Of a stretch of DNA of 32,388 nucleotides, positions 15,074-30,139 are shown in pieces. Below the pieces are notes generated by a model, which did not search any database, was not told where the DNA came from, and was given only the letters and a program-made list of their open reading frames with translations. Numbering within the stretch: the stretch's first letter is position 1; the number at the start of each line of letters is the position of its first letter. Source of the stretch: Candidatus Altimarinota bacterium (lineage in GTDB: Bacteria; Patescibacteriota; Gracilibacteria; UBA4473); assembly GCA_020631075.1 (NCBI GenBank), contig JAHDHX010000009.1:1-32388 (forward strand), in the 5' to 3' direction. The position numbers were made by a program, and so were the translations under genes.

Positions 15074-16384
15074 ATGAATAAAATTCACAAAAATTTATTT
15101 CTTAGCATGTTTATTGGCATGCTATTAGGTGTCGGTTTGGGATATGGTTTGTTTAGTGGTACAGTTGACACTGTAGAAGAAGCAGAATTTAAAAACAGTG
15201 CTTCTAAAGATAGTTTTATGAATTTTGGTAATTCCAATAAGGTAGAATCTTCATTTACTAAAGCTGTTTCAGTTAGATCTCATCAAGATGTAAGAAGTGT
15301 TGATGAAAATTTTTCGTTTCCTGGTAAGGCATTGGTTAACTCAGCAGATGAAATGGAATCTGCTAACGATGATGTTGATGAATACTGTCAAGGACTTAGT
15401 TCAGTAGGCCCTGGAGTTAATCCGACAGATTGCTATGCAATGGTGTCAATATTGAATGGTTTTACGAATGGTCATTATCAGTTGAATAATTGGGGAAACT
15501 TTAATCTTCCTATTTCAGAGTGGGAAGGAGTTGAGGTTGTTGGTAATAATGTTTTTCGTCTTAATCTTAGAGAGCAAAATCTCACAGGAGAAGTTTCGCC
15601 TGAAATTGGAAATTTTATGAATTTAACTGATTTAGACTTTTCTCATAACTATATTACTGGAGACTTGCCAGGAGAAATATGGAATTTAGATAAGCTGCGT
15701 GTATTAGCCTTTGGCTTTAATGAAAATCTCTCTTGGGTTATTCCTTCGGAAATTTCTAATTTGAATTTGCTTAAAAGATTAGAAGTTCAGAAGACTGATT
15801 TGACGGGAACTATCCCTTCAGAACTAACTTCTCTTTCAGATTTGGAAACATTAGTTCTTAGTTTTGGTAATCTGACTGGATACTTACCAACTGATATTGG
15901 CAATTTGTCTAAACTTCGTAACATCTGGATTTCTTCTAATCAACTTCAAGGTCCTATTCCAGCAAGTTTTTGGGATCTGAGTGATTTAGAAACGGTGAAT
16001 CTGGGTAATAATAATCTTGTTAGTATTCTTTCACCGCTCATTGAGAATCTGTCGAATATTAGAGAATTTCAGGTGCACAATAATAACTTATCAGGAGTAA
16101 TTCCTGACACCATTGAAAATTTATCTAATTTAGAAGTTCTTGGTTTGTCTCGTAATAATTTTGTTAATTATATTCCAGAATCAATCTCTAACTTAAATCT
16201 TGATAGTTTTTATGTGTATGAAAATTGCTTGCTTAATGCGGAAGAAGGTTCTGAAAATCCTTGGAACTCTAGCAATGTTATTGAATATAATGGATCTGGA
16301 CAAAGAAATGTCTCAGATTGTATAAATCCACCAATAGAAATTGATTTGGATTCTCAAAATCAATCAGAACAAATCATTGATTAG
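15074..16384 (+). CDS. Leucine-rich-repeat surface protein, AT-rich
   Basis: This 436-residue protein has an N-terminal hydrophobic segment (8-28) serving as signal or anchor, then a polar linker. A cap-like region (about 104-160) ends in ISEWEGVEV, and roughly nine leucine-rich repeats of about 24 residues follow (about 160-385). The repeats match the consensus familiar from plant receptor-like proteins (LTGTIPSELTSLSDLETL and similar). Such repeats bind proteins or sugars, so a surface adhesion or recognition role is inferred. The gene is strongly AT-rich with A/T-ending codons, unlike its neighbours, which points to horizontal transfer. It has its own strong promoter and terminator, so it is an independent unit. 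No sortase signal is visible at the C-terminus. Confidence 0.9.
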   Translation: MNKIHKNLFLSMFIGMLLGVGLGYGLFSGTVDTVEEAEFKNSASKDSFMNFGNSNKVESSFTKAVSVRSHQDVRSVDENFSFPGKALVNSADEMESANDDVDEYCQGLSSVGPGVNPTDCYAMVSILNGFTNGHYQLNNWGNFNLPISEWEGVEVVGNNVFRLNLREQNLTGEVSPEIGNFMNLTDLDFSHNYITGDLPGEIWNLDKLRVLAFGFNENLSWVIPSEISNLNLLKRLEVQKTDLTGTIPSELTSLSDLETLVLSFGNLTGYLPTDIGNLSKLRNIWISSNQLQGPIPASFWDLSDLETVNLGNNNLVSILSPLIENLSNIREFQVHNNNLSGVIPDTIENLSNLEVLGLSRNNFVNYIPESISNLNLDSFYVYENCLLNAEEGSENPWNSSNVIEYNGSGQRNVSDCINPPIEIDLDSQNQSEQIID

Positions 16385-17972: not shown

Positions 17973-19289
17973 TTACTCCTCAAAACTGAGGGGGACGGGG
18001 GGGAAGTCGTGGGTGGCGACGCTGAAGCGGAGGCCGCGGAAGAGGTAGCCGTCTTCGGTGAAGATGAGGTCAGACGCGTCGGCGTCACGCAGGCGGACAC
18101 GGAGGGTGGTGTTTGCGGGAGAGAGGGTGGTGGGGGCGGAAAATTGGGCTTCGAGGGTGAGGGTCTGGGTGGTTTCGGCGGGGAGGCGCAGAGTGGTGCC
18201 ACTGAAAAGCACGGTGCCGCCGCGGGGCACGGGGCGGACTTCGGGGGCTTGGCCGGGGGCGGTCAGGCGGAGGGAGAAGCTATCGGCGGGGAAAACATTG
18301 GTGTGGTCGAACTTGAATTCGAGGTAGAAATTTTGGGCGCTGACTTCTTGGTCGTATTCGTTGCTGACGTCGATGGTGCCGATGGGGTGCCAGCTGTCAG
18401 GGTCGGGGGTGCTGACAGGAAATGGTGTGACTGGGTCGGCGGGACTGACCGTGGCGGTGACGGCCCGAGCGGTGGACTGGTGGCCTTGATCTTCGGCTTC
18501 AAAGTTGGAGGGGCGGATAGCGTAGCGGTACTTAATGAGTTTGAGGTATTCGCTGTCGGAAAGGGGGGTGTCTGGGGCTGGGTCAGCGGGGGGAGGGGTG
18601 TCGGTGGGGGTGTCACGGATGGCGAGCGCTTTGGTGAGGGCGTCGGACTGGTCGGCTTGGTCGTAGGCGATGAGCTGCGAGATGGCTTCGAGCTGGGTGA
18701 CGATCTGGTGGAGTTGCCAGGCGACCTCGGCGCGGGTCATGGGGGTCTGGGGGCTGTATTGCAGGGAAGGCTCGCGGATGAGGCCTTCGGCAGCGAGGGC
18801 GAGGGCGGAGTCGCGGAACCAGGCGTCGAGCGGGACGTCTGTGAACGGCGTGGGTGAGCTGCTGGGCTGGAGGGAGAGGGTGTTGGCGAGCATTTGGCCC
18901 CACTCGGCGCGGTTGAGCGTGCGGCCTGGGGCGAACGTGCCGTCGGGGTTGCCCGAAACAAAGCCCTGCAGGGTGGCGGTGTGCACGGCGGGGCCGAACC
19001 ACTGGTCAGTGGAGACGTCGGTGTAGAGTGCGTCGGTGGGCTGGTCGGTGGTGGTGGGGTCGTCGAGCTGGGTGAGGCGCAGCAGGAGGGTGACGGCTTC
19101 GGCGCGGTTGAGCGTGGCGTGGGGGCGGAAGGTGCCGCTGGGGTCGCCCTGAATGATGCTGCGCTGGGTGAGGTCAGACACGGGGAGGTCGGCCCAATGG
19201 GGGATGTCGGCGTCGTCGGTGTAGGGGGTGAGGGCGGAAGCGGGCACCGCCCAGAGCAAGGCGAGGAGGGTGAAGAGGCGTGAGGGCAT
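17973..19289 (-). CDS. Exported SLH-domain protein
   Basis: This 438-residue protein has a signal peptide (1-19, ending PASA). Three S-layer-homology modules follow at about 21-75, 85-140 and 145-200, with repeated GDPSGTFRPHATLNRAEAV-type motifs. A Pro/Thr/Asp-rich linker lies at about 225-245. The C-terminal half (about 290-438) is strand-rich and acidic, with alternating hydrophobic and polar residues, perhaps an immunoglobulin-like or CARDB-like domain that I cannot name with confidence. SLH modules attach proteins to wall polymers, so this is a surface-layer or surface-linked protein. It ends with TAA upstream of nusA on the same strand. The 148 bases before its start separate it from the divergent shikimate kinase fusion gene. 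Confidence 0.9.
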   Translation of the reverse strand: MPSRLFTLLALLWAVPASALTPYTDDADIPHWADLPVSDLTQRSIIQGDPSGTFRPHATLNRAEAVTLLLRLTQLDDPTTTDQPTDALYTDVSTDQWFGPAVHTATLQGFVSGNPDGTFAPGRTLNRAEWGQMLANTLSLQPSSSPTPFTDVPLDAWFRDSALALAAEGLIREPSLQYSPQTPMTRAEVAWQLHQIVTQLEAISQLIAYDQADQSDALTKALAIRDTPTDTPPPADPAPDTPLSDSEYLKLIKYRYAIRPSNFEAEDQGHQSTARAVTATVSPADPVTPFPVSTPDPDSWHPIGTIDVSNEYDQEVSAQNFYLEFKFDHTNVFPADSFSLRLTAPGQAPEVRPVPRGGTVLFSGTTLRLPAETTQTLTLEAQFSAPTTLSPANTTLRVRLRDADASDLIFTEDGYLFRGLRFSVATHDFPPVPLSFEE

Positions 19290-19438: not shown

Positions 19439-20560
19439 ATGAAAAAGCAAAACATAGTTTTGGTGGGTTTTAAGGGGGCGGGAAAAACCACCTTTGGCCG
19501 TGCGCTGGCCGAAGTGTCTGGTTTGCCTTTTGCGGACCTCGACCAAGAGGTGGAGTATCTGATCGGGGAGTCGATCTATGAATTTGTCGATAAATATGGC
19601 TGGCAGGTTTTCCGTGAGGTGGAGCAGCGGGTGACGCATGACTTTTGTCGTAACTTCTCGGGCGTGGTCGCGACCGGGGGGGGGACGATCGAAAACAGTA
19701 AAAATCTGCAAAATCTGAAAAAGACGGGGAACTTTATCTTCCTCAACACGGAGTACAGTGATGTGCGGCAGTACTTGCTGCAGTCAGAAGAAGAGAAGAA
19801 GCGACCGCGGATGAACCCTGACATCCCGCTGGCGATGGAACTGGACCAGATGTGGAACCAACGGAAGGGGATATATAGCGCGACGGCGGACGTGGAAGTG
19901 TCGCCGCAGCTGTATGGTGACCCGAAGGAAGAAGCGCAGAAAATCCTCAGTGGGTTGACGCCGATGCAGGTGCCTGACTTGCCGAGCCCGAAGAAAATCG
20001 TGCTGCTGGGCAGTGGAAATGCCCGCGTGCTGGACGAACTGGACGCGATGCAGCAAAAAGGGCGACTGCCCAATGTGACCTGGGCGGGGGTGGTGTGCAA
20101 CCAAGCGGACACGGCGATAGCCCAAAAAGCGACCGCGATGGGTGTGCCCGTGGAAGTGCTGGTGGGGGACAATGGGCCTGGGTCGGAGGACTATGATCGG
20201 GGGCTGATCAATGTGTTGCGGGGGATGGAGACGGATTTGATCTTTTTGGCGGACTGGGAGCGGGAGTTCACGGAGTTGTACCGAGATCAGTTTGGGTCGC
20301 TGACGATCGAAACGCACGAGTGCTTGCTGCCGAATTACCATGATCTGCGGGGGGATGAAATCTATGAAAAGGTGCTGGAGTATGAGGATAAGTACACGGG
20401 GGCGAGCTTGCACCGACTGACCAAGACCCCTGAGGGGTCATATGAACTGATGCTGCAACGAAAGGTGGTGGTGCAGCCAGATGACACGGTCCAGTCGCTG
20501 ACGCAGCGGGTGCGGAAGCAGCAAATCTTAGGGTTCTGTGAGATCCTTGAAAAGCGGTAG
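19439..20560 (+). CDS. Shikimate kinase fused to a PurN-like formyltransferase domain
   Basis: This 373-residue protein joins two domains. Residues 1-172 are shikimate kinase: Walker A GFKGAGKTT (10-18), DLD (33-35), FREVEQR (58-64), GGG (80-82), the lid RPRM (122-125) and the ATP-site RKGIYSATA (142-150). All expected residues are there, so phosphorylation of shikimate is likely. Residues 184-373 resemble glycinamide ribonucleotide formyltransferase (PurN), with the start KIVLLGSGNARVLDEL, a THECLLPNY segment and the C-terminal DDTVQSLTQRVRKQQ. In PurN that segment is NIHPSLLP. The histidine is kept (H293), the asparagine is replaced by Glu291, and the Asp of the DGG motif appears replaced. 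The second domain is therefore probably altered in function. No other shikimate or purine genes are nearby. Confidence 0.85.
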   Translation: MKKQNIVLVGFKGAGKTTFGRALAEVSGLPFADLDQEVEYLIGESIYEFVDKYGWQVFREVEQRVTHDFCRNFSGVVATGGGTIENSKNLQNLKKTGNFIFLNTEYSDVRQYLLQSEEEKKRPRMNPDIPLAMELDQMWNQRKGIYSATADVEVSPQLYGDPKEEAQKILSGLTPMQVPDLPSPKKIVLLGSGNARVLDELDAMQQKGRLPNVTWAGVVCNQADTAIAQKATAMGVPVEVLVGDNGPGSEDYDRGLINVLRGMETDLIFLADWEREFTELYRDQFGSLTIETHECLLPNYHDLRGDEIYEKVLEYEDKYTGASLHRLTKTPEGSYELMLQRKVVVQPDDTVQSLTQRVRKQQILGFCEILEKR

Positions 20561-20615
20561 GGGGTGTGGCTGCGTGGGGGGGAGATTTGCTCTGTGACTC
20601 CTGACGGTATGACTC

Positions 20616-20647
20616 AAAAAAACCGCTGCGTGAAGCAGCGGTTTTTT
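20616..20647. terminator. Bidirectional terminator
   Basis: CCGCTGC pairs with GCAGCGG around a GTGAA loop, with seven A before and six T after. It serves both the kinase fusion (+) and htpX (-), which converge here. Confidence 0.95.
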
Positions 20648-20671
20648 GGTGGGGGGAGATTGGTTTGGAGT

Positions 20672-21589
20672 CTAGACCATTTTTTGCAGAGCGGCGATGC
20701 GCTTCTCAAGCGGGGGGTGGGTGGAGAAGAGGTTGGCCAGGCCGAGGCGGCTGAGCCCAGAGATGCTGAGGGCGGCGGTCTGTTGGTTGCCCCGACTGCC
20801 CGAGACGCGGCCGTAGGTGGTTTGGAGTTTTTGCAGGGCGGCGAGCATTTGCTGTTTGCCGGCCATGCGGGCGGCGCCTGCGTCGGCGCGGTACTCACGC
20901 CAGCGGGAAAACCCAAAGTAGACGAGGGAGGCGAGCGGCCCGACGACCATTTGCACGCCGTAGAAGATGGAGTGGAAGAGCATCCCGCCGCCGTAGTGGC
21001 GGTCGTCGTCGCTGGCCATGCCGCGGCTGATGGCGATGGCGGCGGCGTAGGCGATGATGTAGACAAAAGTGTTTATGCAGCCCTGAATGAGGCCGAGGGT
21101 GACCATGTCGCCATTCTGGATGTGGGCGAGCTCGTGCGCGATGACGCCTTCGATTTCTTCGTCGGTCATCTCACGCAGCATGGCGGTGCTGACGGCCACC
21201 AGCGCGCTGCTGGGTCGCCAGCCAGTGGCGAAGGCGTTGATGGCGGAGGACTCAAAAATGCCGACCTCGGGCAGGGGGAGGCCTGACTTAAGGCAGAGGC
21301 GTTCGGTGATTTTCATCAGTTTGACTTCCAAGTCGGAACGCGGGGTGGTGATGACCTGCACCCCTGCGGAGCGTTTGGCGAGGGATTTGCTCATTAAGAT
21401 GCTCACGAAGGAGCCAACAAAACCGATCACCACCCCCCACGCCACCACCCCAGCCATGGGCACGCCTTTGTCCGCCAGCCAGCCAGCGAGGCCAGTGGCC
21501 TGCAAGATGAAAGAGGCGACGACCATGATGGCGACGTTGGTGAGGATCATAAGCAGGAAGCGTTTGCCGTAGCTGAAGAGGGAGGACAT
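20672..21589 (-). CDS. htpX: Membrane zinc metalloprotease HtpX
   Basis: HtpX degrades misfolded membrane proteins. The 305-residue protein has two N-terminal membrane helices (about 11-32 and 45-66) and the zinc motif HELAH (152-156). Two more hydrophobic segments lie at about 165-215, and the third-ligand region REYRADAGAARM comes before a cytosolic tail containing STHPPLEKRI, which is conserved in the family. Length is normal. ATG 21589 is chosen because the conserved N-terminus starts there. The in-frame extension to 21649 looks non-coding. It is divergent from proB (135 bases between starts). A functional link to the SPFH protein is plausible by analogy with FtsH-HflKC but not shown. Confidence 0.96.
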   Translation of the reverse strand: MSSLFSYGKRFLLMILTNVAIMVVASFILQATGLAGWLADKGVPMAGVVAWGVVIGFVGSFVSILMSKSLAKRSAGVQVITTPRSDLEVKLMKITERLCLKSGLPLPEVGIFESSAINAFATGWRPSSALVAVSTAMLREMTDEEIEGVIAHELAHIQNGDMVTLGLIQGCINTFVYIIAYAAAIAISRGMASDDDRHYGGGMLFHSIFYGVQMVVGPLASLVYFGFSRWREYRADAGAARMAGKQQMLAALQKLQTTYGRVSGSRGNQQTAALSISGLSRLGLANLFSTHPPLEKRIAALQKMV

Positions 21590-21724
21590 GAGAAAGGACT
21601 GAAGAGGGAATTTCACCGTGATAATAGAAAGGGCTGGGGCGGGGGGCAAATTTGCGTGGGGTGGGGTTGGCGAATGGGGGTGGGGGAGGTAGAGTGGGGG
21701 CCCTCATAATAACCCTCAACTGAC

Positions 21725-28464: not shown

Positions 28465-29976
28465 TTACGCTTCGATGACGCGGATGGGGTCGTCGGTTTC
28501 GAGCTGGGTGAACCACGCGATGAGCCCACTGACGACAAAGATGCCCACGAGCGGGTAGACGCCCCAGCTGAGGAGGAGTTCGGTGGGGTAGCCTTCATAG
28601 TTGGCGGTGAGGTCGTCACGCAGGCCAGCGACATAGAGCACGGCGATGAGGAGAGGCGCGACGAACTTCATAACAAAGTCGTAGACGGCGCCGAGCTGGA
28701 AGCGTGAGACGGCGTTGAACTGTTGGCGGAGGCGAGCGGCGGGGTAGCCCCAGCCGATGAGGAGGCTCTGGAAAAAGGCGGCGATGAGCACGCCGTGGCC
28801 AAAGACAAAGTGGTCGGTGGTGTCGAGTCGAAAGAGGCCATTCTGGGTGGCGTAGGCCAGTGATGCCAGACAGAAAAGGCCGCAGAAGAGCGCCACGCGG
28901 GTCGAGGTGGAAAACCAGCTGAGGAAGGGGAAGTTGGCCTTGGCGCTGGCGATGATGGTCTCAATGATCGCGAACATGGAGTCGATCGCTAGGGTGAGGA
29001 TGGTCACAAAGAAGAGCACGGCAAACAGCGCCGGGAAGATGGGGAAGGCACTGAGGGCGGCGGGAATAGTGACGAAGGTGAGGACGACCCCTGACTGGAC
29101 CACTTCGGTGAGGGGGGTGCCCTGTGACTGGGCCATAAACCCGAGGGTGCCGAAGACGACCCCTGCGGAGATGAGGCTGACGAGGAGGTCGCCGCCGAGG
29201 ACCCATTTCATGGTGCCGGTGATGTCGGTGTCTTTGGCGTTGTAGGTGGCGTGGAGCACCGTGATGGCGAGCCCTACATTCGCAGAAAAGAAGGCCTGGC
29301 TGAAGGCGTCGCGCCAGAGGCTCAAGCTGGTGAGTTGGGTGAAGTCGGGGGTGAGGAGGTAGGCGAAGCCGTCGCTGGAACCCGGGAGAAAGAAGGCGTT
29401 GATGAACAGGACCACCAGCAAAATGATGGGGAGGGGGACGGTGATGGCGACGACGTTCTCGACGGATTTGATGCCCTTAAACAAGGAAAAGTAGACGGCG
29501 ATGTAGGTGGCGATGAGCCCGAGCACCACAGGGGTGACGTAAGACCCGACGGTGGTGGGGTCGTCGGAGAGTTGGAGGATCTGGCCGAAGAAGAAGGTTT
29601 GGGGGTCGGTGCCCCAACTTAGCGAGAAGCTGTGGTAGAGGTAGTCCCACGTCCAGCCGATGACGGAGGCGTAGTAGGCGGCGAGGAGCATCATGTTGCC
29701 CACGAGGAACAGCCCGACCCAGCGCCCCCATTTGCCGCCGATGCGCGTGAGGGCGCCGGTGATTTCTTGGCGGGTGAACTGGCCGAGGGCGGCCTCCGAC
29801 ACGAGGAAGAAGTACACAAACCCCAGCATGATGATGAGGTAGGCGAGGATGAACGCTGCGCCGCCGTTGTCGTAGACCATGTAGGGGAAACGCCACAAAT
29901 TGCCGAGGCCAGCGGCGGCCCCGATGGTGGCGAGGACAAAGTACCATTTCGAGCGCCAGAGGGAGGATGTATTCAT
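28465..29976 (-). CDS. SNF-family sodium-dependent symporter
   Basis: This 503-residue membrane protein belongs to the neurotransmitter:sodium symporter family (LeuT-like), which imports amino acids or related solutes with Na+. The first helix has the unwound signature AAAGLGNLWRFPYM (about 19-32), followed by NGGAAFILAYLI. About 11-12 helices span the protein. This suits an organism that scavenges amino acids, though the substrate cannot be deduced. ATG 29976 starts directly before the conserved LWRSKWYFVLATIGAA block, and the in-frame extension runs through the promoter and into the tRNA. It is convergent with the recombinase gene. Confidence 0.95.
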   Translation of the reverse strand: MNTSSLWRSKWYFVLATIGAAAGLGNLWRFPYMVYDNGGAAFILAYLIIMLGFVYFFLVSEAALGQFTRQEITGALTRIGGKWGRWVGLFLVGNMMLLAAYYASVIGWTWDYLYHSFSLSWGTDPQTFFFGQILQLSDDPTTVGSYVTPVVLGLIATYIAVYFSLFKGIKSVENVVAITVPLPIILLVVLFINAFFLPGSSDGFAYLLTPDFTQLTSLSLWRDAFSQAFFSANVGLAITVLHATYNAKDTDITGTMKWVLGGDLLVSLISAGVVFGTLGFMAQSQGTPLTEVVQSGVVLTFVTIPAALSAFPIFPALFAVLFFVTILTLAIDSMFAIIETIIASAKANFPFLSWFSTSTRVALFCGLFCLASLAYATQNGLFRLDTTDHFVFGHGVLIAAFFQSLLIGWGYPAARLRQQFNAVSRFQLGAVYDFVMKFVAPLLIAVLYVAGLRDDLTANYEGYPTELLLSWGVYPLVGIFVVSGLIAWFTQLETDDPIRVIEA

Positions 29977-29984
29977 TATTTGGA

Positions 29985-30013
29985 ACTCTAGGGAAAAAAA
30001 GTCGGGAAGGCAA
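29985..30013 (-). promoter_or_regulatory. Predicted leaderless promoter of the SNF gene
   Basis: On the minus strand TTGCCT (30013-30008) and TAGAGT (29990-29985) are 17 bases apart. The ATG follows 8 bases after the -10 box, the same geometry as creD and the Cys-rich gene. Confidence 0.5.
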
Positions 30014-30062
30014 AAAAGGTCACATTCTGGAAGAAATGTGGCTGGTGGTGGAAGTGAAAATG

Positions 30063-30139
30063 TGGTGGAGCATACCAGATTCGAACTGGTGACCTCATGC
30101 ATGCCATGCATGCGCTCTAGCCAACTGAGCTAATGCCCC
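30063..30139 (-). tRNA. tRNA-Ala (anticodon GGC)
   Basis: The 77 nt gene has acceptor stem GGGGCAT/ATGCTCC with one G-T pair and the D arm GCTCAGTTGGCTAGAGC. The anticodon stem CATGC/GCATG has loop ATGGCAT, giving GGC. The T arm is ACCAGTTCGAATCTGGT, the discriminator is A, and CCA is encoded (30063-30065). It reads GCC and GCU codons. Confidence 0.96.

Follow-up and report, generated by a model that had tools for sequence, protein, structure and literature searches.

A shikimate kinase-PurN fusion in one Gracilibacteria family, and the probable loss of PurN activity in the window species

Why should a shikimate kinase (SK) be joined in one polypeptide to a PurN-like domain whose active site is altered, and what does that second domain do? 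The gene that raises this question lies in a 32,388-nucleotide stretch of DNA from a Candidatus Altimarinota bacterium, hereafter the window. An earlier note, made from the sequence alone, suggested that the second domain may act on a different formyl donor or acceptor, or be regulatory. The coordinates of the gene, its parts and its neighbours are collected in Table 1. The window genome is called G000 and the other members of its family G001 to G019; these genomes are draft MAGs, so that absence calls depend on their completeness, and the genus of the window is represented by G000 alone.

Table 1. The fusion gene, its domains, the altered PurN residues and the flanking features in the window
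Feature	Coordinates	Strand	Basis or remark
Fused SK-PurN gene	19439..20560	+	373 aa, one frame, no internal stop; one ORF in the searched family members too
Shikimate kinase half, residues 1-172	19439..19954	+	Pfam SKI 2.1e-34; residue table
Linker, about residues 173-184, with invariant P179 inside	19955..19990	+	Family alignment
PurN half, residues 185-373	19991..20557	+	Formyl_trans_N 6.5e-18; alignments to E. coli GART and relatives; model; Foldseek
Codons of E291-T292-H293, the altered N-x-H motif	20309..20317	+	Alignments
Codon of E332, which aligns with catalytic Asp144	20432..20434	+	Alignments
Two-way terminator-like hairpin separating the fusion gene from the convergent protease gene	20622..20642	.	
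Divergent SLH-domain protein gene, synteny marker	17973..19289	-	Same-place homologue at 13 of the 15 family loci whose upstream sequence is available
Convergent M48 (HtpX-like) protease gene	20672..21649	-	Pfam Peptidase_M48 1.9e-35

Both halves of the fusion have the codon bias of real genes. Since a two-way terminator-like hairpin and then the convergent protease gene lie downstream, the fusion gene is probably monocistronic. A plus-strand ORF at 20564-21286 (240 aa) was considered as an operon partner and is spurious: it runs antisense to the protease gene and its codon score is negative. Two other features of the window are recorded here. Positions 15074-16384 (+) hold a leucine-rich repeat (LRR) ORF whose GC content at third codon positions is 0.22, whereas core genes have about 0.75, and which weakly matches plant-pathogen LRR effector models; it was possibly acquired horizontally, or its composition is possibly just that of LRRs. 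A transporter of the sodium:neurotransmitter symporter family (SNF; Pfam 2.7e-84) is encoded at 28468-30111 (-).

The distribution of the fusion was assessed by searching related genomes. In a search of 60 genomes it was found in all 20 family genomes searched, 16 times at full length and four times cut by contig ends (split copies in G005, G013 and G019, the last 57 residues only in G007); in the other families the SK and PurN matches were separate. Among 288 genomes of the class, matches to the fusion below 1e-32 were obtained in 19, all of them family members, G007 having missed this line with its copy cut at a contig end, and no fusion was seen outside the family in the other 268 sampled class genomes. 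The 19 readable fused PurN halves form one clade in a PurN tree (support 100), apart from the stand-alone PurNs of the class, and since the divergent SLH-domain gene lies directly upstream in 13 of the 15 loci with enough sequence, the locus is orthologous across the family. The joining of an SK and a PurN-like domain in one gene, as the earlier note had it, is therefore that of a single, clade-specific ORF, and the homologues, in which the same domain pair recurs throughout the family, are not two separate genes. That an assembly or sequencing error joined two genes has a negligible probability, given full-length copies in one frame in 16 independent genomes. One relative with the fusion has a named entry in the public databases, the Candidatus Gracilibacteria bacterium isolate MAG-122 RZ_580. 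A pattern search of genome contigs yielded one locus alone, whose contig is apparently that of G008. No published description of an SK-PurN fusion was found in the open-access papers searched, and in that literature it appears to be undescribed.

The kinase motifs attributed to residues 1-172 proved to be complete. Pfam SKI covers residues 13-170 (E 2.1e-34, 119.4 bits against a cut-off of 22.1), and the window copy has the P-loop G10-x4-G15-K16-T17, D33/D35, R59, G80-G81-G82, the lid arginine R122, and R142. The reference positions tabulated for SK are, in the numbering of the Mycobacterium tuberculosis enzyme (MtSK), the P-loop Lys, Asp34, Arg58, Gly79-81, Arg117 and Arg136 (PMC2593004); the ATP- and shikimate-binding positions of MtSK are all there in the window copy, as K16, D35, R59, G80-82, R122 and R142. 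The half thus resembles AroK and AroL (EC 2.7.1.71, PF01202) in its whole domain, its full set of residues and its Foldseek matches to solved SKs, and it is the sole SK found in a genome that has aroA, aroB and aroC, all three detected in the family searches; the genome search of G000 found no second SK. It differs from them in bearing a C-terminal PurN domain and in its score of 96.5 bits, which falls short of the NCBIfam equivalog cut-offs (161).

The C-terminal half resembles the PurN GAR transformylase (EC 2.1.2.2; TIGR00639, PF00551) in fold and descent, and its canonical fused relatives possess the N-H-S-D set; the window copy differs in lacking the catalytic Asn, the Asp and the folate loop, and in scoring only 70-73 bits. 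Formyl_trans_N matched residues 185-365 (E 6.5e-18, 65.5 bits against a cut-off of 26.1). AlphaFold2 modelled the whole 373-residue chain with a pLDDT of 87.4 and a pTM of 0.84, values obtained from an input of 19 aligned sequences that included canonical relatives, so that the model may overstate how well the G000 half folds. Among the structures returned by Foldseek were solved SKs as well as GAR transformylases (E about 1e-10 to 1e-13, TMt about 0.7-0.86). The Pfam and Foldseek matches bear out the PurN-like half that had been placed at residues 184-373, and the structural match was found as well. With the TIGR00639 PurN model, whose cut-off is 150.1, the window copy scored 70.5 bits as a protein and 72.6 in the genome search, and the fused PurN halves of canonical relatives scored 138-163 bits, several of them above the cut-off. 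The half is not a formyltetrahydrofolate deformylase (PurU): it has no ACT domain, and TIGR00655 gave 26.3 bits against 285.95.

In E. coli GART, His108 and Asp144 are named as catalytic in PMC3261824, and the triad Asn106-His108-Asp144 in PMC4786211. A HMMER alignment to this enzyme (PDB 2gar) places E291 at Asn106, H293 at His108 and E332 at Asp144. What the earlier note had read at the residue level is hence correct: the histidine is kept, a Glu replaces the catalytic Asn, and a clear Asp is absent, its position being occupied by another Glu. Alignment to the relatives revealed that the fused half of G000 has also changed in its folate loop (GWMRILS to DWEREFT) and in its phosphate loop (SSSNGTT to GSGNARV); its SLLP motif has gone from HPSLLP to HECLLP.

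Is the altered active site a trait of the family? The N-H-S-D set is kept in 17 of the 19 readable fused halves and lost only in G000 (E-H-C-E) and G001 (G-H-S-Q). The altered active site is therefore real in the window copy and is not a trait of the family. G000 and G001 are also the only two of the 20 family genomes with a stand-alone PurN, the PurN-model search having found none in the other 18. The stand-alone gene of G000 directly follows purL, purQ and purM on contig C35 (purL-Q-M-N), that of G001 directly follows purM, and N-H-S-D is intact in both products. Residue loss in the fused half and possession of a stand-alone PurN are associated with a Fisher p of 0.006 over the 19 readable halves, of which those of G000 and G001 may share history. 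Since purD was matched in all 20 family genomes (at E 0.001 or better, mostly over the cut-off), purM and purH were each matched in 19, and stand-alone PurN is absent from 18, the fused half is, judged by gene content, the sole PurN-type enzyme of a purine-making cell in most members.

Other formyltransferase-like genes were sorted in the same searches. Extra PurN matches of 282-284 aa in G003 and G014 are PurU, over its cut-off, and matches of 275-320 aa (L132, L133, L134, L135) fit PurN and PurU neither in length nor in sequence. The 275-320 aa protein is conserved in family members, adjoins pyrH in at least two and looks like a different formyltransferase, and the other matches of roughly 300 aa look Fmt-like, these assignments coming from the part of the matches that was checked. 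At the purM loci of most members (L056, L058-L067, L070, L071, L073), purM lies between two conserved genes, one of about 295 aa before it, together with a purF-like stretch, and one of about 104 aa (MIFHFQTGDVTFF...) after it. The PurM tree was unresolved and was left out of the branching order. PurT, a second type of GAR transformylase that depends on formate, passed its cut-off in G008 and G010, with a partial match in G007; the fused PurN half is unreadable in G007 and intact in G008 and G010 despite PurT, and redundancy alone therefore does not force decay.

The weight of the stand-alone purN of G000 depends on C35 belonging to this organism. Were the contig a contaminant, the cell would rely on its degenerate half or lack a GAR transformylase altogether. 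The sampled part of C35 does have a higher GC content than the window contig (62.8% against 57%), but its tetranucleotide correlation with that contig is 0.88, compared with at most 0.71 for other family members, it carries the only purM of the genome together with an AroA-NUDIX fusion of the family type, and the estimated contamination of the genome is 0.74%. I consider contamination very unlikely. Slightly harder still to credit is that the fused PurN half of G000 remains an active GAR transformylase, with Glu in place of both Asn and Asp, the stand-alone PurN serving as a spare. In favour of this, the half retains the catalytic His, and both replacements are acidic; Glu can serve as an acid or base, and some residual activity may for that reason be conceivable. 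However, the equivalents of Asn106 and Asp144 are kept in every other aligned PurN besides the fused halves of G000 and G001, the substrate-binding loops have changed as well, and the other purN, in the pur cluster, has canonical residues.

The rate of change was then compared between the two halves. On the G000 branch, with the topology fixed, the PurN half has accumulated 1.32 substitutions per site against 0.32 for the SK half (4-fold), and 18 of 54 otherwise invariant positions are changed in the former against 2 of 51 in the latter. The corresponding counts in G001 are 11 of 54 and 3 of 51, and none of the other 14 genomes has more than six such losses in either half. The decay is specific to one half and is not a general effect of the unusual GC content of the genome (57%). 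G000 and G001 are joined on the PurN-half tree (88) and apart on the SK-half tree; a one-clade test for their decay was not rejected (p 0.07 and 0.33), and the two decayed copies may share one event.

Action on a different formyl donor or acceptor, as proposed in the earlier note, is not favoured by these data: 17 of the 19 readable homologues are canonical, and the change is specific to one lineage. Because it comes with the loss of the folate and phosphate motifs, with a 4-fold rate limited to one half and with a separate, canonical purN in purLQMN, I read it as decay of a redundant activity and not as new chemistry. A wider form of the idea is that the PurN half has been repurposed, as a domain that binds a ligand (folate, GAR/FGAR, a nucleotide) or as a formyltransferase for some other acceptor, and that it thereby regulates the SK half or adds to its function. 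The half is in frame and is predicted to be folded after extensive change; many invariant positions of the fused clade, such as C367, L370 and E371 in the C-terminal helix, are kept in G000 and G001; and G001 has retained the fusion though it has separate SK and PurN genes. A regulatory link is also conceivable along the route from chorismate through p-aminobenzoate to folate, which PurN uses. Against this, the folate-loop, phosphate-loop and catalytic positions have all been lost together, no new motif is common to enough genomes to define a site, and a canonical purN sits in the operon, all of which makes repurposing unlikely. A regulatory role for what remains of the PurN fold is possible, and in its most specific version the former PurN half would be a ligand-sensing pseudoenzyme that regulates the SK half, for example via folate or a purine intermediate. 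This version is a little less probable again; if true, it would amount to a cross-pathway control absent in the relatives.

The mirror image of this decay is found within the family. G002, G006, G009 and G015 yielded no aroB or aroC, and at most a MurA-like match to aroA; G011 and G017 have a second SK. All six have Tyr, His, Ile or Thr in place of the lid arginine of the fused SK, together with a canonical PurN half. The equivalent arginine of M. tuberculosis SK, Arg117, is listed as a substrate residue within the conserved RPLL motif (PMC2593004) and is described as contacting the gamma-phosphate of ATP (PMC3646032). The lid arginine is lost in six of the seven genomes in which the pathway is gone or a second SK is present, and in none of the 11 in which the SK is needed (Fisher p 0.0004, over species that are not independent and represent about three or four events); G001 has kept it despite its second SK. 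A second, stand-alone SK is also encoded directly downstream of the end of the fusion gene in G007 (L041:4082-4648). No readable genome has lost the catalytic residues of the two halves together. Since the PurN residues have been lost in G000 and G001 and the SK lid arginine in the six mirror genomes, each half, as far as the sequences tell, decays once its own task is lost or taken over.

The sequences thus document a conserved fusion, changes in its residues, an additional purN gene, and both the half-specific and the mirror decay. The account that I prefer, with a probability of roughly 0.75, is that SK-PurN is ancestrally bifunctional and that in the window species the SK works while the PurN half is dead but folded, its task having passed to a stand-alone PurN. 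The simplest reading is that an enzyme acting both as shikimate kinase and as GAR transformylase had a single origin, in the common ancestor of this Gracilibacteria family, and that both activities would persist in most members. What I infer from these comparisons is which activities the enzymes have, that the PurN half is inactive, and that it has been retained for a structural reason. In the window species, the SK half would be the sole shikimate kinase of the cell, presumably with normal activity on shikimate; the PurN half, without its Asn, its Asp and its folate and phosphate motifs, would be catalytically dead; and formylation of GAR would be expected from the stand-alone PurN encoded after purL-purQ-purM. 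This agrees with the other aro and pur genes found in G000, namely aroA, aroB and aroC, and purL-purQ-purM-purN.

Why, then, is a dead half retained? One answer would be that it is a pure relic, free of selection and simply not lost yet. Its long branch and the loss of a third of its otherwise invariant positions fit such a relic, but two thirds of these positions are kept, and at about 1.3 substitutions per site an unconstrained stretch of 190 codons almost always gains stops. In a simulation with a simple model lacking indels, 1.2% of the runs at 0.4 hits per site left a neutral copy of the PurN half (a 190-codon stretch) without a stop, and 0.1% did so at 1.5. Since an unconstrained copy so rarely stays open, and since the codon use of the PurN half is that of core genes, some selection still keeps it in frame, and I regard the pure relic as improbable. 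Under the preferred account, the dead half would be kept as a folded part, the likeliest reason being co-evolution of the SK half with its partner, be it for stability, packing or oligomerisation. Dependence between fused domains has been reported for another chimera of the aromatic pathway, DAH7PS-CM (PMC12202928). That G001 keeps the fusion while having separate copies of both activities hints at a further value of the fusion.

The SK-PurN protein can be set beside several known fusions. SK-AroB (NF010627, NF010556), fungal AROM and the AroA-SK proteins of the class also join SK to another enzyme in one chain, but their partners belong to the same pathway, whereas here the partner is a purine enzyme. 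Likewise, vertebrate trifunctional GART and haloarchaeal PurN-PurH1 (PMC3261824) join PurN to another enzyme; unlike SK, their partners belong to the purine pathway. In the plant proteins SKL1 and SKL2 (PMC2593004), too, a redundant or duplicated enzyme fold has been kept after loss of its catalytic residues, but there it is SK itself that is lost, whereas in the window protein the SK half is intact and its partner lost. AroA-SK fusions (EPSP_synthase plus SKI) were seen in two other class families tested (L083:3443-5203, L087:4314-6101), and since other families have this arrangement, SK would seem to change its fusion partner between families of the class. The window's family has a second odd aro fusion, of AroA (EPSP synthase) with a C-terminal NUDIX domain: G000 encodes it on C35, outside the window (L136:975-2867 (-), Pfam 8e-17), at least three further members have it (L137, L138, L140), and in G012 a DUF559 domain lies between the two. 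No description of AroA-NUDIX was found in the papers searched.

For the biology of this family, the SK-PurN fusion would be an enzyme fixed across one small-genome bacterial lineage as the sole source of PurN and usually the sole source of SK. The family may be seen as a natural experiment in which loss of a pathway, or takeover by a second gene, goes with decay of the matching half alone and the fusion stays. The window species, with a dead PurN and a live SK, and the species without aro genes, with a damaged SK and a live PurN, would then be matched cases, with which one could ask, in a testable manner, why fused enzymes persist once one of their halves has become useless.
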